This document shows, in pieces, positions 296-35,072 of a stretch of DNA of 35,970 nt (positions are counted from its first letter, which is position 1; each line of letters starts with the position of its first letter). The stretch lies in NCBI GenBank assembly GCA_018052825.1, contig JAGPMN010000014.1:1-35970 (forward strand), in the 5' to 3' direction. This DNA is from Methanothrix sp. (GTDB lineage: Archaea; Halobacteriota; Methanosarcinia; Methanotrichales; Methanotrichaceae). Position numbers and translations under genes: made by a program. The notes below the pieces were generated by a model. That model ran no database searches. It was not told the DNA's origin and worked only from the letters and a program-made list of their open reading frames with translations.

Positions 296-1744
296 TCACA
301 TCTTCCACTTCTTCGCGCACATGCCCTCCGCCACCACCGCCCTCGGCCCGGGCATGGCCAGCTCCTCCCTGATCAGCGCCTCCACCTCCACTACCGGCGC
401 GGGCAGATGCAGGCGGCGCACTGGCAGTAGCGCCTGAAGAGCTGCTGTCAAATCCGGGGACGGCTGGCCGCCGGTCATGGCAGCCACATCGTTCTTGATG
501 ACAACCGCAAGCAGATCCCTCTTCTGCCAGACGGCATTGATCAGCCCCTGCAATCCTGAGTGGGCCAGGGCGAAGTCTCCCAGGAGAGCAATGCCCTTTT
601 GGGCGAAGCCCGAGGCCACAGCAGCTGCCGAGCCCAGGCCGTAGGCCATGTCCACAGAGGCAAACGGCTCCCGGCTGGCACGGATGGCGCAGCCGGCGTC
701 CCCAGCCACAGGGACGTCTACCGCAGCCAGAGCTGAGAACAGCGGGGCGAAGGGGCAGCCTTCGCATATGCCCTCATATCCCCTCTCGGCCACGCTCTCG
801 TAGACAAGCGGCCTTCTGGCTGGCCTTTCCTCAAGCCCCTCCAGGGCGGAGATGATGTCTGACCTGTTCAGCAGCCCATGTGGCAGATGGCCGGAGAGCT
901 TTCCCCGGACCCTGGGGCTCATGGCCAGATGGGATTCGATGAACGGCTCCGGCTCCTCTGCTACCAGAACCAGCCTGTGACCATCGATAAAGCGGCGTAC
1001 AAGCCTCTCCGGCAGGGGATAGGCGTAGCCGATGGTGAGAAGAGAGACACCGAGGCCCTCTGCCAGGGCGGCTGCCCTTCCTGAGGCGATGATGCCTATA
1101 TCCCCCGATATCTCCAGCCGGTTAGTGACCGAAGACTCGGCAGCCTGCCGGGCAGATGCCATCGTCATCTCCGAATGCCTCTGCTGTCTTCCTTTTGCAG
1201 TCAGCTCCCATATCTCCCTCTCAAGCCGCTGGCCCGGGGCTTTCTCGGGCCGGGGCTGTATGGGCGGGCCATGCGCTGCCAGAAGCTGGGCTGTCACCCG
1301 CACTATGACCGGAGCTCTCAGATGCTCGGAGAGGGAGAAGGCCTCCATCAGGCTGGCATGCAGGTATGCAGGATCTTTAGGATCGAGGACTGGCAGCTTC
1401 GCCAGCGGCCCAAAGTAGCGGCTGTCCATCTCAGTCTGCGAGCCCTTCGGCCCCAGGTCGTCGCCGGCGATCACAACCAGCCCCGAGCCGATGCCGTGCG
1501 TGGCTGAGATGACCAGCGGGTCGAGCAGCACATTCATGCCCATCTGCTTGACCAGCACGACAGAGCGCAGGCCTGTGGCCGAGGCTCCAAGTGCGATCTC
1601 GAGCGCCACCTTCTCGCTCACGGCGATCTGGGCCTGCAGGGCCTCCCCCAGAGCCGTCACTGGATAGCCGGGTACATATGTCCGCACTGCCGCTGCCGCG
1701 TCCCGGGCCGCCTGGGCCGCCGCCTCAACACCGCTTTCCGACAC
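296..1744 (-). CDS. IorA-like thiamine-pyrophosphate protein lacking the ferredoxin domain
   Basis: This 482-residue protein resembles the alpha subunit of indolepyruvate:ferredoxin oxidoreductase, which oxidatively decarboxylates aryl-pyruvates using TPP and ferredoxin. The N-terminal pyrimidine-type domain (about residues 24-160) has the typical EKVALEIALGAS, DPLV and DSRY blocks. The C-terminal TPP domain (about 320-470) has GICEGCPF (Cys327, Cys330) and MTGGQP. The usual GDG/GDS at the TPP site reads GDF (389-391). True IorA proteins are about 600 residues and end in a two-cluster [4Fe-4S] domain; this one stops just where that domain would begin, and no iorB is visible. The start is GTG, with GAGGCG five bases upstream. 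It lies 30 nt after the marker-11-like gene and is probably co-transcribed with it. The redox reaction is doubtful without the ferredoxin domain. Confidence 0.75.
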   Translation of the reverse strand: MSESGVEAAAQAARDAAAAVRTYVPGYPVTALGEALQAQIAVSEKVALEIALGASATGLRSVVLVKQMGMNVLLDPLVISATHGIGSGLVVIAGDDLGPKGSQTEMDSRYFGPLAKLPVLDPKDPAYLHASLMEAFSLSEHLRAPVIVRVTAQLLAAHGPPIQPRPEKAPGQRLEREIWELTAKGRQQRHSEMTMASARQAAESSVTNRLEISGDIGIIASGRAAALAEGLGVSLLTIGYAYPLPERLVRRFIDGHRLVLVAEEPEPFIESHLAMSPRVRGKLSGHLPHGLLNRSDIISALEGLEERPARRPLVYESVAERGYEGICEGCPFAPLFSALAAVDVPVAGDAGCAIRASREPFASVDMAYGLGSAAAVASGFAQKGIALLGDFALAHSGLQGLINAVWQKRDLLAVVIKNDVAAMTGGQPSPDLTAALQALLPVRRLHLPAPVVEVEALIREELAMPGPRAVVAEGMCAKKWKM

Positions 1745-1774
1745 GTTCGCCTCTTTATCAAAAGCCTCTCATTC

Positions 1775-2671
1775 TTATGCTCCCGGCACCACAGACTCAT
1801 CCGGCCGGGCACAGAATGGAAGGGCGGCAACCGCTCCGATCTGTCCGTGCCCGTTCATGAGGATCTGCACACCGCTCTCGCGGGCGGCCTCCAGGGCATC
1901 CTCAAGCTGCACCCTCTCCCTTTTGCACCTCTGACCAAAGGGGAGCAGCGAGGAGGGATCATAGCCCCGGAAGACGGCCATTCCGGTCTGAGAGGATACA
2001 GAATACTTCCTGAGCAGAGCCTTGAAATCAGAGAGCATGGCCTCACCCCTCTCCGGCAGGCATGCAAACTCCACCACTGTGGCCACGCAGTTCTGGGTCT
2101 TGGTGGGAACTGGAAATAGCTGCACCAGAGAGTGGGATATGTAGCGTGCCTCAGCCCGGTCCACCCTGGCTGCGATGTTGTGAATCAAAGTCCATGTGGC
2201 CCCATCCGATTTGGAGTCGGTGTCGTCAACTCCGATGATCATCCTCTCCCTGCGTGGAAAGACAATGGTCCCACGGCCAATCCTCCCTCCACCGCATTCG
2301 GTCACATCATATCGCAGCACATCCTCGGCTCTGGCGCGGGTGAGTGTCGCTCCCACACCGCCTCCGCCGAGGCCTGCATAGGTGATCGCGACCTCTGAGC
2401 CGTTCACAGCCACTGATTCAATCCCCGCGGACCGCCTGGAGGAGACCAGGTCTAAGTCGGCCTTTCCAGGGACTAGCTCGTATCGAAACCACTCGCCAAG
2501 GGCGCGAGAGCTTTTGACCAGCGGCCCGTGCGAGTAATGGTACCTGGCCCAGGCAGAACCCCCATAGCAGTTGGAGCGCTCAAGTAGCTCCACACGGCCG
2601 GCATTATCATCCACCACGGCATGAATTTGCTTGTAAACCACAACATACGGGTCATCTAATTCCAGTTGCAC
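1775..2671 (-). CDS. TiaS-like protein, probable methanogenesis marker protein 11
   Basis: 298 residues. The central motif GVDDTDSKSDGATW matches the ATP-binding DDTDS signature of TiaS, the archaeal enzyme that puts agmatine on C34 of tRNA-Ile2. The protein is shorter than TiaS and lacks its C-terminal OB-fold and zinc ribbon. From its motif and length I take it for methanogenesis marker protein 11, a family described as confined to methanogens and of unknown function; that assignment rests on memory. The likely start is GTG at 2671, with GGGGAA seven bases upstream. The gene begins 4 nt after truD ends and is followed after 30 nt by the IorA-like gene, so pth2-truD-this-IorA-like looks like one transcript. 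A role in nucleotide or RNA modification is inference. Confidence 0.65.
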   Translation of the reverse strand: MQLELDDPYVVVYKQIHAVVDDNAGRVELLERSNCYGGSAWARYHYSHGPLVKSSRALGEWFRYELVPGKADLDLVSSRRSAGIESVAVNGSEVAITYAGLGGGGVGATLTRARAEDVLRYDVTECGGGRIGRGTIVFPRRERMIIGVDDTDSKSDGATWTLIHNIAARVDRAEARYISHSLVQLFPVPTKTQNCVATVVEFACLPERGEAMLSDFKALLRKYSVSSQTGMAVFRGYDPSSLLPFGQRCKRERVQLEDALEAARESGVQILMNGHGQIGAVAALPFCARPDESVVPGA

Positions 2672-7441: not shown

Positions 7442-10033
7442 CTAGGGCAGCTTGAGCATGCCCGGACGTGGCTCGAAGACGTCTCCGTCTCTTCTCATGC
7501 GGTCGATGATCTCCTCCGCTTTAGATCTTTCTATGCCCAGCTCCTCCGCCCGGTCGAGAACTGCATCTCTTGGCGCAGGCCCCTGCTGCTCCCGGCTGAC
7601 ATCGCGGATGATATCCATCACGGATCTGGTCCTGTCCCTCGTGCTCTTGGTGGTGCCTGTGGCGATTATGTCGGCATCCAGAAAGCCGGTCTCCGGGTCG
7701 ACGCCCACCTTTCTCAGGCAGGCCTCCTGGATCCTGACCACGCGCCGGGCATCCTCAATGGTGACCTTCGGAGAGAGGCGCAGCCGGGCGCTGGCTTCGC
7801 CCAGGCGGATGAGCGCCTCCAGCTGCCTGGCGGTGACGGGGACGGGCTTGCTGCTGTCCTGTCCCTGGCTCCTCAGCCCCACGTAGTAGTTCAGGAAGTA
7901 ATCCCTGGCCTCGTCTGAGAGGGTGGGAAAGATGTTCTTTCGGGCATACGCCACATACTTTCGCAATAGCTCCGGCTCTATGGCCGGCTTGATCACCACC
8001 AGGGCCTCGTCGATGTCCTCCTGTGTGATATCCGGATTCCAGGAGATCTGGCTGGCCAGCTCTCCTGCGTAGTTGCTCTTCAGTATATGCTCGGCGATGG
8101 CCGAGTCCCTCTTGGTGTCCGGGTCGTCGGTCAGCACAAATATCAGGTCGAAGCGGGACATCAGGGCCGGGGTGAGGTTGATCTGGGGTGCGATGGGCTC
8201 GTACTTGTCGAAGCGGCCCAGCTTGGGATTGGCGGCGGCGAGCAGAGCACAGCGAGACTTGAGGGTGGCCATGACCCCGGCTTTGGCGACGCTTATGGTG
8301 TTGTGCAGGATGAGGCCCAGGGAGATGAATGTGTGGCTTGGCTCGACTGTGATGTCGTATACATACCTCTCGCCCTCATTGGGCACGGCCTGCACATCTG
8401 TTATCCTCAGAAATACGATCTTTTCTCCGCCCTCAGATGCCGGAGCTGTCGCAGGTGCCATCTCTCCGGCCTTAGCCTCGCAGGCGGGAATGCAGGCGGC
8501 GGCATTCTCTTCACCTGCGATGTACACAGGATGCTCTGGAGTTACAATTATCTCGCGCCCGTTTGAATACCGTATCTTAATAAAATATCCCGGAGCTGTG
8601 TGTCTGCTGACCCTATCAACATTTGCATCGAAGATGCAGTTCATGTCTGTACTTTTTATCCTTATACCCTCTTTTAAAGGGAGGATCTCGCATTCCTTGC
8701 CGGCAATCGTCTCTTCGGGCCGGGTCGCCATCAGCCTGTCCACAAGCTCGCCAATACGGGCCTTTCTGCCGTCTGAGAGCTGAATCTCTGTGGATGAGTG
8801 ATAGCTCTGCTGCTCCATGGCCTCGTGCAGTGCGCTCTTGTCTTCGCTGTTCATCTTGTCCATCTCGTCTATGGCTGCGATGCCCTTGTCGGCAAGCACC
8901 AGGGCTCCGGCCTCGATGGTCCATCGGCCGTCCCCCAGCTCGTCTTTCACTGCGGTGGCTGTGAGCCCTGCAGAGGTCGAGCTCTTGCCTGAGGTGTATA
9001 TGCCGCGGGGAGAGATCTTGGTCATGTAGCGCAGCATCTGCGACTTGGCTATGCCGGGGTCGCCCACCAGGAGGATATGGATGTCGCCCCGGATGCGGGC
9101 TCCGTCGGGAAGATGCTTTTCGAAGCCAGAGACCAGCTGCAGCGCCAGGGCCTCCTTCACATCGTCGTATCCGTAGATGGAGGGGGCGATGGAGCTTCTG
9201 ACCTTATCGTAGATCTCGGGGTCACAGGACATCTCAAGTATCAGCTTCTCCTCCTCCTGGCCTATCTCTATCTCCTCGAACTCCTGCTCCTTCATCTCCA
9301 CGGATATGCCCCGGTGGACGAGGTCGAAGTACGTGCTCTTGCCCTGTTGCGGTGATGTGCGCTGGTAGGACTTGAGAATGCCGTTGACGATCACCCGGTC
9401 TCCCGGGAAGATGCGCCCAGCCAGATCGTCCTCCAGCTCCACATCAAGGGTTTGCGGCTGCTCGCCGCCCCGCAGGTCCTCAGGGGACTCCTGCACCCGG
9501 ATCTTCTGGGCATCCACGAACCTGGACTGGGCGAGAAGCAGCTTGAAGGGGCCGCCCCTGTCGCAGGCCTGGTTCATGCACTTGAGGTTCTGGTCCTCGA
9601 ACTTGTTTCCGGTCTGCTCCTTGAAGAAGGTATAGCCGCACCTCTGGCACTGGAAGGCTGCTGAGACGATCTTGGGGCGGACTTCTGTCGCAGTTCGCAC
9701 GAGGCCGTCTATGGCCAGAAGCTTGTTTATGTGGTCGGATCGCAGCTCGCGGGTCTTGAAGTGGCGGGGCAGCTCTACAACGCGCACGTGGGCTCTGTCC
9801 AGGTAGACGTCCATAGGCAGGTCCAGCTCGAGGAGGGCAGCTTTGGCCGCATCCAGGATCTTCTCTGGATCGTCCAGCAGCTCCTCTGCGAACTCGGGAT
9901 CGTAGCGGTCCAGGTCAGGGAACCTGACGTGCAGGCTTCTCTCATCAGGATAGGAGTCGGCAAGCTCCAGCAGCTCATCCCAGTAGCGGGTGTGCAGGAA
10001 CTCCTCCCATTTGGCGACAGGATCTGCGGGCAT
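7442..10033 (-). CDS. mcm: MCM replicative DNA helicase precursor, intein-containing
   Basis: 863 residues as translated, 694 after removal of a 169-residue intein, the normal size for archaeal MCM, the ring helicase that unwinds DNA at the fork. The N-terminal domain carries a zinc site (Cys129, Cys132, Cys152, Cys157). The AAA+ core has Walker A GDPGIAKS (324-331), Walker B with DEMDK (from 389), LAAANP (sensor 1) and SRFDLIF (arginine finger). A C-terminal winged-helix region ends the protein. The intein (residues 410-578) interrupts HEAMEQQ / TISVAKAG, just after Walker B, in the most conserved part of the enzyme. There is no clear Shine-Dalgarno; the AT-rich TTTAGATA about 40-45 nt upstream may be the TATA box. 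First gene of mcm-DUF424-nmd3. Confidence 0.97.
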   Translation of the reverse strand: MPADPVAKWEEFLHTRYWDELLELADSYPDERSLHVRFPDLDRYDPEFAEELLDDPEKILDAAKAALLELDLPMDVYLDRAHVRVVELPRHFKTRELRSDHINKLLAIDGLVRTATEVRPKIVSAAFQCQRCGYTFFKEQTGNKFEDQNLKCMNQACDRGGPFKLLLAQSRFVDAQKIRVQESPEDLRGGEQPQTLDVELEDDLAGRIFPGDRVIVNGILKSYQRTSPQQGKSTYFDLVHRGISVEMKEQEFEEIEIGQEEEKLILEMSCDPEIYDKVRSSIAPSIYGYDDVKEALALQLVSGFEKHLPDGARIRGDIHILLVGDPGIAKSQMLRYMTKISPRGIYTSGKSSTSAGLTATAVKDELGDGRWTIEAGALVLADKGIAAIDEMDKMNSEDKSALHEAMEQQSYHSSTEIQLSDGRKARIGELVDRLMATRPEETIAGKECEILPLKEGIRIKSTDMNCIFDANVDRVSRHTAPGYFIKIRYSNGREIIVTPEHPVYIAGEENAAACIPACEAKAGEMAPATAPASEGGEKIVFLRITDVQAVPNEGERYVYDITVEPSHTFISLGLILHNTISVAKAGVMATLKSRCALLAAANPKLGRFDKYEPIAPQINLTPALMSRFDLIFVLTDDPDTKRDSAIAEHILKSNYAGELASQISWNPDITQEDIDEALVVIKPAIEPELLRKYVAYARKNIFPTLSDEARDYFLNYYVGLRSQGQDSSKPVPVTARQLEALIRLGEASARLRLSPKVTIEDARRVVRIQEACLRKVGVDPETGFLDADIIATGTTKSTRDRTRSVMDIIRDVSREQQGPAPRDAVLDRAEELGIERSKAEEIIDRMRRDGDVFEPRPGMLKLP
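8300..8806 (-). other. Mini-intein within MCM (169 aa, Ser1/Thr+1)
   Basis: An in-frame self-splicing element. Block A is SYHSSTEIQLSDGRKARIGEL, so the first residue is Ser rather than the usual Cys. Block B is IIVTPEHPVYIA, with the T-x-x-H pair. Block F is YVYDITVEPSHTFIS, and block G ends LILHN. The residue after the junction is Thr, a valid nucleophile. With only 169 residues there is no room for a homing endonuclease; the middle (about residues 97-128 of the intein) is an Ala/Glu-rich spacer. Pyrococcus CDC21/MCM proteins are known to carry a mini-intein of similar size, possibly at the same site. Confidence 0.93.
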
Positions 10034-32482: not shown

Positions 32483-33787
32483 GTGTCTGACAAGATAGAC
32501 CTATATAGCGACCGCGGAGTTCTTTTGAAGAGCGACGTCGACCTGAGCGCCGTCAGCCCTCTCAAGAACGCGGCCATGCAGAGACTTATTTCTCTCACAA
32601 AGCGAACTGTCGCCGTTAACCTGGCCGGCATTGAAGGCGCACTGAAGACCGGAAAGGTCGCAGGAGGCCGCAGGCAGATCAAGGGCCGCGAGCTCAACTA
32701 CGATGTTGTTGCCAACGCCGGCGCCGTTGCTGATAAGATAAAGTCCTTGCTGCAGGTAGCCCCTGGCGACGACACCAATGTTCAGGTGCTCGGCGGCGGC
32801 AAGCAGCTCCTGGTCCAGATTCCTACCGCCAGGGTCAATGCAGCCTCTGAGTTCGTGGTAGGCATGACAGGCGCAGCCGCAGCAACAACCGAGGCACTCA
32901 TCCAGCAGTTCAAGGCCGGTCTCATCGAGGCCCCCATGATCCATGCCGCTGTCTGGGGCGAGTACCCGCAGACTGTGGGCATGTCCGGCGGAAACGTTGC
33001 ATCCGTTCTCAGCATCCCCCAGAACGATGAGGGTCTGGGCTTCGCTCTGAGGAACGTAATGGCCAACCACCTGGCTGCCATCACCAAGAGGAACGCCATG
33101 AACGCCGCGGCTCTCGCATCCATTTACGAGCAGATCGGCGAGTTCGAGATGGGCAATGCCATGGGCATATTCGAGCGCCACCAGCTGCTGGGCATGGCAT
33201 ACCAGGGCCTGAACGCCAACAACATGGTATACGAGTGCGTCAAGGCTAACGGCAAGACAGGAACCATCGGCACTGTAGTCCAGAGCATTGTGGGCAAGGC
33301 CATTGAGGACAAGGTAATCAAGGCCGGAAAGAAGCTGCCCTCCGGCTACGTCATGTACGAGGCCAACGATGTATCCAAGTGGAATGCCTATGCCGCCGCC
33401 GGCGTGCTGGCTGCCACCATGGTCAACTGCGGCTCCCTCCGGGGCGCGCAGGCTGTGTCCTCGACACTGCTGTACTTCAACGATATACTTGAGAAGGAGA
33501 CTGCTCTGCCCGGATGCGACTTCGGCAGAGTAATGGGTACTGCCGTAGGCTTCTCATTCTTCAGCCACTCCATCTATGGCGGCGGCGGCCCCGGTGTATT
33601 CAACGGCAACCACGTGGTAACCAGGCACTCCAGAGGATTTGCCATACCATGCGTGGCTGCGGCAGTAGCACTGGATGCCGGCACACAGATGTTCACACCT
33701 GAGATGACATCTGGCCTGGTCGGTTCCATTTACGGAGAGATCAAGGAATTCCGTGAGCCGATCATATCGGTTGCGGAGGCTGTGTAA
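32483..33787 (+). CDS. mcrB: Methyl-coenzyme M reductase subunit beta
   Basis: 434 residues, full length. The (alpha-beta-gamma)2 enzyme releases methane from methyl-coenzyme M and coenzyme B. SIYGGGGP carries the Tyr and GNHVVTRHS the His, 12 residues apart, that correspond to active-site Tyr367 and His379 of the Methanothermobacter beta subunit. The start is GTG with a strong ribosome-binding site. First gene of the operon, 10 nt ahead of mcrD. Very regular codon use fits high expression. Confidence 0.98.
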   Translation: MSDKIDLYSDRGVLLKSDVDLSAVSPLKNAAMQRLISLTKRTVAVNLAGIEGALKTGKVAGGRRQIKGRELNYDVVANAGAVADKIKSLLQVAPGDDTNVQVLGGGKQLLVQIPTARVNAASEFVVGMTGAAAATTEALIQQFKAGLIEAPMIHAAVWGEYPQTVGMSGGNVASVLSIPQNDEGLGFALRNVMANHLAAITKRNAMNAAALASIYEQIGEFEMGNAMGIFERHQLLGMAYQGLNANNMVYECVKANGKTGTIGTVVQSIVGKAIEDKVIKAGKKLPSGYVMYEANDVSKWNAYAAAGVLAATMVNCGSLRGAQAVSSTLLYFNDILEKETALPGCDFGRVMGTAVGFSFFSHSIYGGGGPGVFNGNHVVTRHSRGFAIPCVAAAVALDAGTQMFTPEMTSGLVGSIYGEIKEFREPIISVAEAV

Positions 33788-33797
33788 AGGCGGAAGC

Positions 33798-34301
33798 ATG
33801 GTCACTCTATCAGACACGGAATCGATACAGGTAGAAATCGTCCCCAGCAGATATCTCATGCCGGCAACGGCTCAGAAGCTGCTGAATGAGATCTACGGGA
33901 ACGGGGGCATAGTCAGGATCATGATTCAAGGCCCCAACCTTCCCAGATCCGTCCCCTACGGGCCTGGCAGGGGCGCTCCAATCGATGAGAATAGAGATCT
34001 TCTCATTGAGGTCGGCGGGCAGATAATTGAGCTGACGGTTAAAGTCGGAAGGATCCGTATCGAGCTGGAGAGCGAAAAATACTTCAACGGGCTGAAGGCG
34101 GCGTGTGAGCGAGCGCTTCCCTTCTCCTTCCAGATCAGGAAAGGCAAGTTCTTCCACACCAGGCAGACGATAACCGATTATGCAAAGTTCGGGAATGTGG
34201 AGGACAAACGCTTGCTGGGGCTGATCGATCCCAAGGCCAGGAAGGAAAGGCTGGCCATATTGTCTGAAAGGAATGTGACTATTGAAGATGAGGAGAGATA
34301 A
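33798..34301 (+). CDS. mcrD: Methyl-coenzyme M reductase operon protein D
   Basis: 167 residues from ATG 33798. McrD is not part of the purified core enzyme; it is associated with its assembly or activation. Visible blocks are VEIVPSRYLMP, VRIMIQGPNLP and FHTRQTITDYAKFG, typical of the family. The frame is open 15 codons upstream, but that would overlap mcrB, so I take the ATG after the mcrB stop. It lies between mcrB and mcrG with gaps of 10 and 3 nt. Confidence 0.95.
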   Translation: MVTLSDTESIQVEIVPSRYLMPATAQKLLNEIYGNGGIVRIMIQGPNLPRSVPYGPGRGAPIDENRDLLIEVGGQIIELTVKVGRIRIELESEKYFNGLKAACERALPFSFQIRKGKFFHTRQTITDYAKFGNVEDKRLLGLIDPKARKERLAILSERNVTIEDEER

Positions 34302-34304
34302 ATT

Positions 34305-35072
34305 ATGGCATACACACCACAGTTTTATCCCGGAAGCACCTCTGTTGGCATCAACAGAAGAAAGCACATGTCCGGCAAGCTGGATAAGCTCAGAGATATT
34401 CCTGAGGCGGACGTAGTGGCAATAATGGGCCACAGGGCCCCTGGTGCCGATTACTCCAGCACTCACCCACCGCTCAAGGAGATGGGCGAGCCAGACTGCC
34501 CCATCAGGCAGATCGTAGAGCCGACCGCAGGAGCCGCTGCTGGTGACCGTGTAAGGTACTCCCAGTGGACCGATTCCATGTACTTCGCACCCTCTATTCC
34601 ATACTGGAGATCCTATTGGGGAGCCATCAACTGCAAGGGCTGCGACCCAGGCACACTGTCCGGCAGACAGATCATCGAGGCCAGGGAGAGGGATATCGAG
34701 GCCTACACCAAGGCCCAGTATGACAGCGAGATGACCGATGTCGCCCTCTGTTCCATGAGGGGCTGCACTGTGCACGGCCACTCCCTGAGGCTGGAGGAGA
34801 ATGGCATGGAGTTCGATATGCTGGCCAGGACCGAGATGGGAGCCGACGGAAACGTCTATGCCGTCAAGGATCAGGTAGGCATTCCTCTGGATAGGAAGAT
34901 CAAGCTGGGCAAGCCCATGAGCGAGGCCGAGGCCAAGAAGAGAACCACCATCTTCAGGGTAGACGGCGTTTCCATGTGCGGAAAGGTCGGAGCCAGGAAG
35001 TACGATGAAGCTGTTGAGGCTCTGCACCACATGTGGGAGCTGCGCAGCAAGTGGGGATTCAGGCCGGAGTAA
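34305..35072 (+). CDS. mcrG: Methyl-coenzyme M reductase subunit gamma
   Basis: 255 residues, full length. It starts MAYTPQFYPGSTSVGINRRKHMSG without its last few residues needed to recognise it, and includes LCSMRGCTVHGHSLRL, whose Arg corresponds to the coenzyme-M-binding gamma Arg120 of Methanothermobacter. Directly after mcrD: in Methanosarcina and Methanothermobacter mcrC stands in between, but not here. mcrA follows 14 nt later. Confidence 0.97.
   Translation: MAYTPQFYPGSTSVGINRRKHMSGKLDKLRDIPEADVVAIMGHRAPGADYSSTHPPLKEMGEPDCPIRQIVEPTAGAAAGDRVRYSQWTDSMYFAPSIPYWRSYWGAINCKGCDPGTLSGRQIIEARERDIEAYTKAQYDSEMTDVALCSMRGCTVHGHSLRLEENGMEFDMLARTEMGADGNVYAVKDQVGIPLDRKIKLGKPMSEAEAKKRTTIFRVDGVSMCGKVGARKYDEAVEALHHMWELRSKWGFRPE

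Follow-up and report, generated by a model that had tools for sequence, protein, structure and literature searches.

The locus and its gene pair

The window studied here is a 35,970 nt stretch of DNA from Methanothrix sp. (contig JAGPMN010000014.1 of assembly GCA_018052825.1). Our subject is a pair of minus-strand open reading frames (ORFs) in it, separated by 30 nt: the first (1775-2671, 298 aa) encodes methanogenesis marker protein 11 (Mmp11), and the second (296-1744, 482 aa) encodes a short IorA-like thiamine pyrophosphate (TPP) protein, which we propose to be the 2-oxosuberate decarboxylase of coenzyme B synthesis. The original prediction, made from the letters of the window, placed a probable marker 11 gene 30 nt ahead of a TPP protein; TIGR03280 scores above its cut-off on the first gene, and the ORF coordinates agree.

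Genomes, loci, families and genera of our surveys carry the labels Gnnn, Lnnn, fN and gN, the window's own genome being G000. Alignment A1 holds 27 short homologues of the TPP protein from six families of the class, and A3 holds 20 short proteins. Of the 59 comparison proteins, 56 are full IorA-type proteins; the others are L145 and L163, short relatives from bacteria, and L115, which turned out to belong to the short proteins. The features of the pair are as follows.

296..1744, minus strand: short IorA-like TPP protein, 482 aa, proposed 2-oxosuberate decarboxylase (ORF; TIGR03336; predicted model)
1613..1615, minus strand: E44, conserved with IorA (E in 59/59 comparison proteins; invariant in alignments A1, A3 and A4)
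755..766, minus strand: C327-x2-C330, proximal [4Fe-4S] ligand pair by homology (27/27 short homologues; 57 and 59 of 59 comparison proteins)
689..691, minus strand: C352, third proximal-cluster ligand by homology (27/27 short homologues; 59/59 comparison proteins)
572..580, minus strand: G389-D390-F391, TPP/Mg motif, third residue F for S (alignments)
491..493, minus strand: N418, TPP/Mg motif (59/59 comparison proteins; invariant in A1, nearly so in A3)
317..319, minus strand: C476, fourth proximal-cluster ligand by homology (27/27 short homologues; 58/59 comparison proteins)
1775..2671, minus strand: Mmp11, 298 aa, N-terminal domain plus TiaS-like TCKD/FLD (TIGR03280; predicted model)
2213..2236, minus strand: IGVDDTDS, TiaS-like motif, Mmp11 residues 146-153 (alignment to 3u02 and 3au7; D149, T151 and D152 invariant)
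2195..2197, minus strand: T159 of Mmp11, aligned with TiaS Thr18 (alignment to 3u02 and 3au7; invariant)

Sequence and fold of the short TPP protein

The IorA profile TIGR03336 matches the TPP protein at positions 7-474 of 595 with 257.5 bits (cut-off 650.9), and the match stops before the C-terminal two-cluster ferredoxin domain. By score, by the missing ferredoxin domain and by the lack of an adjoining IorB the protein falls outside the IorA family. It carries the PF02775 TPP_enzyme_C domain, and its TPP-binding residues, proximal [4Fe-4S] cysteines and fold place it in the 2-oxoacid:ferredoxin oxidoreductase (OFOR) superfamily.

C327, C330, C352 and C476 are invariant in A1, as are E44, D390 and N418. 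We take the spacing of the cysteines (CxxC, C, C-terminal C) to be the OFOR proximal-cluster pattern, E44 to be the expected TPP-activating Glu, and N418 to be the partner of D390 in the TPP/Mg motif. The four conserved cysteines indicate that the proximal-cluster ligands are retained and that the two distal clusters alone are lost; the CxxCxxC pattern occurs in 0/27 short homologues. The TPP protein had been predicted to lack the [4Fe-4S] domain. This holds for the C-terminal 2x[4Fe-4S] domain; the proximal ligands are present, so the further premise, that the protein cannot pass electrons through clusters of its own, had to be given up. Among the copies seen, that of f30 (L179, genome G311) has lost all four cysteines, and Methanomicrobia copies are ORFs of 375-445 aa missing some 70-90 middle-domain residues. 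The predicted GDF, where GDG or GDS is expected, is confirmed at residues 389-391: the third residue is S in 58/59 comparison proteins and Y in one, and in A3 it is F or Y in 17/20, with M, S and T once each.

The predicted model of the TPP protein has a pLDDT of 92.7. In this model, residues 1-482 align with the pyruvate:ferredoxin oxidoreductase (PFOR) 1b0p as far as its residue 1077 (464 aligned, Z 27.1); Z ranges over 27.0-30.7 against OFOR chains generally, with full-length alignment against one-chain PFORs only. Acetolactate synthases, ranked top by Foldseek, were rejected: their TM-score was about 0.3 with a root-mean-square deviation near 20, and a second structural comparison put OFORs first. 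A phmmer search of the PDB with the TPP protein gave chance matches only.

The short TPP protein shares with IorA the TPP domains, the TPP motif residues and the four proximal-cluster cysteines, with 30-31% identity to both full IorA of its own genome; it differs in having no C-terminal 2x[4Fe-4S] domain and no IorB partner, in reading mostly GDF or GDY for GDS, and in forming a separate clade. With PFOR (1b0p, 6cio) it shares the TPP-binding domain fold, aligning into the C-terminal region (464-470 aligned, Z 27-28), although PFORs have about 1,160-1,230 residues against 482 here. The CoA-binding and ferredoxin domains of PFOR have no counterpart in it.

The Methanothrix genome holds two full-length IorA, each adjoining an IorB. 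A search for a matching ferredoxin or gamma subunit elsewhere in the genome had been proposed; we sought the gamma subunit and found no spare gamma domain there, all five PF01558 domains being placed by position with other OFORs. The short TPP protein is thus left without a gamma partner of its own.

Conservation of the mmp11-TPP pair

The class survey (Methanosarcinia) comprised 199 genomes, 115 of which have positions for both genes among the matches listed. We compared 150 TPP and 124 mmp11 matches; the mmp11 matches omitted are those of genomes without a listed TPP match. Among the matches listed, 104/115 genomes have mmp11 at most 2 kb upstream of the TPP gene and on its strand, with a median gap of 51 nt (range 6-1959; five above 300 nt). 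A pair so conserved across the class is not adjacent by chance. Family f4 accounts for 9 of the 11 exceptions.

We rejected an apparent absence of the short TPP protein from Methanomicrobia. A cut-off of 1e-70 had hidden diverged copies, which locus L115 and a class-specific query revealed; an alignment-based search with A3 (cut-off 1e-90) likewise failed to list them. The diverged copy was read at the Methanoregulaceae locus L115, at two other loci and then at eight further Methanomicrobia loci. With the class-specific query it is found in 96/99 genomes, and mmp11 in 97/99; where both occur, mmp11 precedes the TPP gene on the same strand, 950-1034 nt ahead of it, in 92/95.

Adjacency of the two genes is common without being universal. 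They adjoin in f1 and f3 and in most of f5; f4 and f8 have the TPP gene away from mmp11, beside aksA-aksD.

Linkage to the aks genes of coenzyme B synthesis

Clustering of the neighbours at 42 TPP loci placed aks-type proteins beside the TPP gene in f4, f6, f8, f15, f30 and part of f1. An NCBIfam scan of ten neighbours assigned them to the homocitrate/isopropylmalate synthase, homoaconitase large and small subunit, and homoisocitrate/isopropylmalate dehydrogenase families, that is, aksA, aksD, aksE and aksF. In Methanomicrobia the gene order by tblastn (11/11 loci) is mmp11, radical S-adenosylmethionine (SAM), TPP, aksA, aksD, aksE, DUF7714, aksF, except that the L181 locus ends before aksF (aksF thus seen in 10) and L196 has DUF7714 elsewhere.

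An aksA lies near the TPP gene in Methanomicrobia (11/11), f15 (4/4), f8 (2/2), f4-like (5/6), f6-like (1/2) and f30 (1/1) loci, in 2/7 f1 loci (3.4 and 5.3 kb away), and in 0/1 f31 locus. The TPP gene directly adjoins aksA-aksD in f15 (4/4), f8 (2/2) and f4-like (5/6) loci, and aksA alone in one of the two f6-like loci. It abuts aksA-aksD in Methanocella, in one further family and in ANME-2-like genomes (ANME, anaerobic methanotrophic archaea), even where mmp11 lies elsewhere. The single f30 locus (L179) has the TPP gene directly behind aksF in an aksA-aksD-aksE-aksF-TPP operon encoding acidic proteins. At L174-L176 of f15, a single stretch contains mmp11, the TPP gene and aks genes, and so joins the mmp11 linkage to the aks linkage. 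Linkage to homoaconitase-type aks genes, as for a coenzyme B cluster, is thus found in some lineages and not at the window's locus; in the Methanothrix genome itself aksE, DUF7714 and aksF are adjacent on another contig (G000:C21).

The small subunit (HacB) tells homoaconitase from isopropylmalate isomerase by a short signature: the homoaconitase 2pkp reads YLRT, and the isopropylmalate isomerase 3vba reads YLVY. All 18 of the TPP-linked HacB copies examined read YLRT, YLRS or YLRR. The unlinked HacB copies with a readable locus, from six of these genomes, have FLII, FLII, YLVL, YYDE, FLTI, YLTI and LMYR. In G000, G019, G128 and G171, whose aks genes are not beside the TPP gene, and in G053 and G118, whose copies were read elsewhere in the genome, one HacB reads YLRT and the other YLVI, YLTI or YLIF; the YLRT copy of G000 is the aksE at C21.

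The original prediction had suggested a dedicated, unassigned step, perhaps in a methanogenesis cofactor. The linkage to aksA, aksD, aksE and aksF supports this and identifies the cofactor as coenzyme B.

Distribution and phylogeny

Our phylum sample comprised 256 genomes, 145 of which match mcrA (threshold 1e-50). Methanobacteriota (beyond Methanocaldococcus jannaschii, a control of the family searches), Methanomassiliicoccales and other phyla lay outside the surveys. Wide occurrence of the short TPP protein outside methanogens would have spoken against a methanogen-specific role; most carriers in the sample have mcrA, and those without a match are just G311, G323, two f8 genomes (G240, 70% complete, and G246, 61%) and, among the Methanomicrobia, G319 and G334, in which mcrA was likely missed by the search. 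In G311 (L179) the TPP protein might make a pimelate-type aldehyde for a purpose other than coenzyme B.

Among the mcrA-bearing genomes of the phylum sample, no mmp11 match was found in f13, nor in f11 except in G264; f11 is, we would guess, ANME-1-like. A match to mmp11 also occurs in f10, where no TPP copy was found.

In our tree a 100/100 branch sets 19 of 20 short proteins apart. The remaining one (G323/L178) groups with IorA, and 31% of bootstrap trees unite all 20; we rejected it as a member of the short clade on its placement with IorA-like proteins and its GDS. The bacterial short IorA-like proteins L145 and L163 (549 and 533 aa by trimmed ORF) have no CxxCxxCxxxC, keep GDS and group with IorA.

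Mmp11, the radical-SAM protein and DUF7714

Mmp11 belongs to TIGR03280 (methan_mark_11; 339.6 bits, cut-off 255.8). Its C-terminal half matches the TiaS TCKD and FLD Pfam domains: the kinase domain PF22641 scores 57 bits (cut-off 27), and the DDTD motif and the threonine aligned with Thr18 are conserved (D149, T151, D152 and T159 invariant). About 150 residues of its predicted model (pLDDT 89.1) match TiaS (3amt, E 2.4e-9, 152 columns). Unlike TiaS, Mmp11 has an N-terminal half of its own, and the full-length TiaS family NF040849 gives 28 bits against a cut-off of 600. We take IGVDDTDS to be a phosphate-binding motif, as in TiaS. TiaS uses ATP to activate a carbonyl that an amine then attacks, and its Thr18 is autophosphorylated. 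By analogy, such chemistry in Mmp11 would fit either the joining of 7-mercaptoheptanoate to threonine or a phosphorylation. Many Methanomicrobia (e.g. G200, G276, G389) have a second, diverged Mmp11-like gene (about 145-162 bits) in tandem with mmp11.

The radical-SAM protein of the Methanomicrobia operon is LipS2-like (63 bits, below the cut-off of 270). All 16 such proteins share three core cysteines and the C-terminal CxxCxxC, and in 13 of the proteins the core has the CxxxCxxC pattern. At L185, L186, L200 and L201 a radical-SAM gene with the C-terminal CxxCxxC adjoins mmp11 relatives, also in lineages without a nearby aks gene.

DUF7714 has five invariant cysteines (8/8) and matches the XcbA family weakly (76.6 and 41.5 bits, cut-off 150). 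XcbA is described in a passage of PMC11507031 as the functional analogue of a sulfoacetaldehyde dehydrogenase, i.e. as acting on an aldehyde. In our controls TIGR03280 matched both Methanosarcina acetivorans and M. jannaschii, and DUF7714 the former alone, so Mmp11 looks more widespread than DUF7714. All three proteins are candidates for later coenzyme B steps.

Proposed function

The AksA/D/E/F steps end at 2-oxosuberate, and 7-oxoheptanoate follows it in the pathway. Passages of a 2023 paper (PMC10384328) list 2-oxooctanedioate, 7-oxoheptanoate, 7-mercaptoheptanoate and 7-mercaptoheptanoylthreonine as the intermediates whose enzymes are unknown; section 14.5 of PMC3087415 likewise knows no enzyme at this point, and names the aldehyde after 2-oxosuberate differently. 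An excerpt from a 2025 paper (PMC12068725) still calls coenzyme B synthesis unknown. It has coenzyme M made through ComDE, which gives sulfoacetaldehyde, and Mmp16, which gives the thiol, and suggests that Mmp16 or L-ASST may serve coenzyme B too. A non-methanogenic Methanocellales genome, Met12, is reported in part of PMC11176372 to have no AksA-F. Nothing on coenzyme B synthesis was found in passages of the ANME genome paper PMC9012536. A literature search by the name 'methanogenesis marker protein 11' gave no match, and no paper with a title assigning the short TPP gene was found among the matches listed, in a search with subscription journals mostly outside its coverage.

We are confident that the short TPP protein belongs to the coenzyme B pathway, and it is probably the 2-oxosuberate decarboxylase. 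Gene linkage, the homoaconitase signature, the lost electron-exit parts, the kept TPP residues and the single clade are matters of data; from them we infer the substrate, the aldehyde product and the step of Mmp11. With a TPP enzyme in the aks operon and 2-oxosuberate as the Aks end product, removal of CO2 from 2-oxosuberate is the most likely reaction. The protein would be an IorA-type OFOR stripped of its distal ferredoxin domain and working without a gamma subunit. The last product of AksA/D/E/F, 2-oxosuberate, would enter it and be decarboxylated non-oxidatively to 7-oxoheptanoate. The gamma subunit we take to carry the CoA-binding domain; in its absence the TPP-bound intermediate could not reach CoA, and would instead be protonated and released as the aldehyde, an outcome that the loss of both ferredoxin domain and gamma partner favours. 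Mmp11 would belong to this pathway too, where it would most likely catalyse a late, ATP-dependent step (threonine joining or phosphorylation).

ComDE is TPP-dependent and offers a parallel with another substrate. Its reaction, like the one proposed here, removes CO2 from a 2-oxo acid and leaves an aldehyde that is later made a thiol (PMC12068725, introduction).

More tentatively, the operon may encode the whole lower half of coenzyme B synthesis. The TPP protein would give 7-oxoheptanoate, DUF7714 and the LipS2-like radical-SAM protein would carry out or assist its conversion to the thiol, and Mmp11 would activate by ATP and join threonine, or phosphorylate.

Several observations weigh against a coenzyme B decarboxylase. 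The TPP gene has no aks gene nearby in f3 (0/9), f5 (0/6), f7-like (0/2) or f35 (0/1) loci, nor in 5/7 f1 loci. The linked Aks proteins of L172 score below the NCBIfam methanogen equivalog cut-offs (HacA 502.8/550, HacB 186.2/230, AksF2 316.1/540). G378 has a short TPP protein and an mcrA-like match, yet 0/3 of its HacB-family copies read YLRT, and a YLRT copy is also absent from the G323 HacB copies examined. G311 holds an aks-TPP operon but matches neither mcrA nor mmp11. The TPP searches (1e-70, 1e-90) gave no short protein in the mcrA-bearing f11, f13 and g48 of f10, absences that are not firm because those searches also missed the Methanomicrobia copies. Finally, nearly every copy seen retains the four cluster cysteines, for which a plain decarboxylase would have no need; outside f30 the cluster may have a structural role or serve a real oxidative reaction.

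The protein may instead be an oxidative OFOR, which would turn 2-oxosuberate into pimeloyl-CoA, pass electrons through the proximal cluster to free ferredoxin, borrow its gamma subunit from a full IorAB pair and leave the acyl-CoA to be reduced later. We consider this unlikely. The 27/27 conservation of the cysteines in A1 speaks for it, and the two full IorA-IorB pairs of the genome could lend an IorB; against these stand the absence of a dedicated gamma subunit, the loss of both distal clusters, and the f30 copy, which sits inside an aks operon with 0/4 ligand cysteines, so that the cluster is dispensable there.

It is also improbable that the substrate is another 2-oxo acid of a chain-elongation or branched-chain pathway (e.g. 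on a side branch to a pimelate-type precursor) unrelated to coenzyme B. The resemblance of the AksA/D/E/F homologues to leucine-pathway enzymes, at scores below the methanogen equivalog cut-offs, would fit such a pathway, as would the G311 operon, but the linked HacB carries the homoaconitase signature that its paralogues in the same genomes do not, most phylum-sample carriers have mcrA, and Mmp11 and DUF7714 share the operon.

A further reading makes Mmp11 and the TPP protein the two parts of one enzyme, serving another methanogen cofactor or modifying methyl-coenzyme M reductase, with an incidental aks linkage. This would suit the adjacency in f1, f3 and most of f5 and the occurrence of mmp11 in f10, where no TPP copy was found, yet it is very improbable given that f4 and f8 have the TPP gene away from mmp11 and with aksA-aksD, and that Methanomicrobia and Methanocella have all the genes together.

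Other features of the window

An apparent small intein interrupts the MCM helicase ORF (7442-10033, minus strand): by eye, the translation has an in-frame insert that closes with a His-Asn-Thr junction. At 32483-35072 (plus strand) lies the start of an mcr operon, with McrB-, McrD- and McrG-like ORFs by eye and no evident mcrC between them.

Significance

The early steps of coenzyme B synthesis (AksA/D/E/F) are known, and the linkage described here turns the gap at the last intermediates into named genes. Both Mmp11, a widespread marker, and DUF7714 are thereby tied to a single pathway. The short TPP protein suggests an OFOR reduced towards a decarboxylase by losing its electron-exit parts. 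If the operon does encode the lower half of coenzyme B synthesis, this would give first roles to Mmp11 and to a Pfam domain of unknown function.

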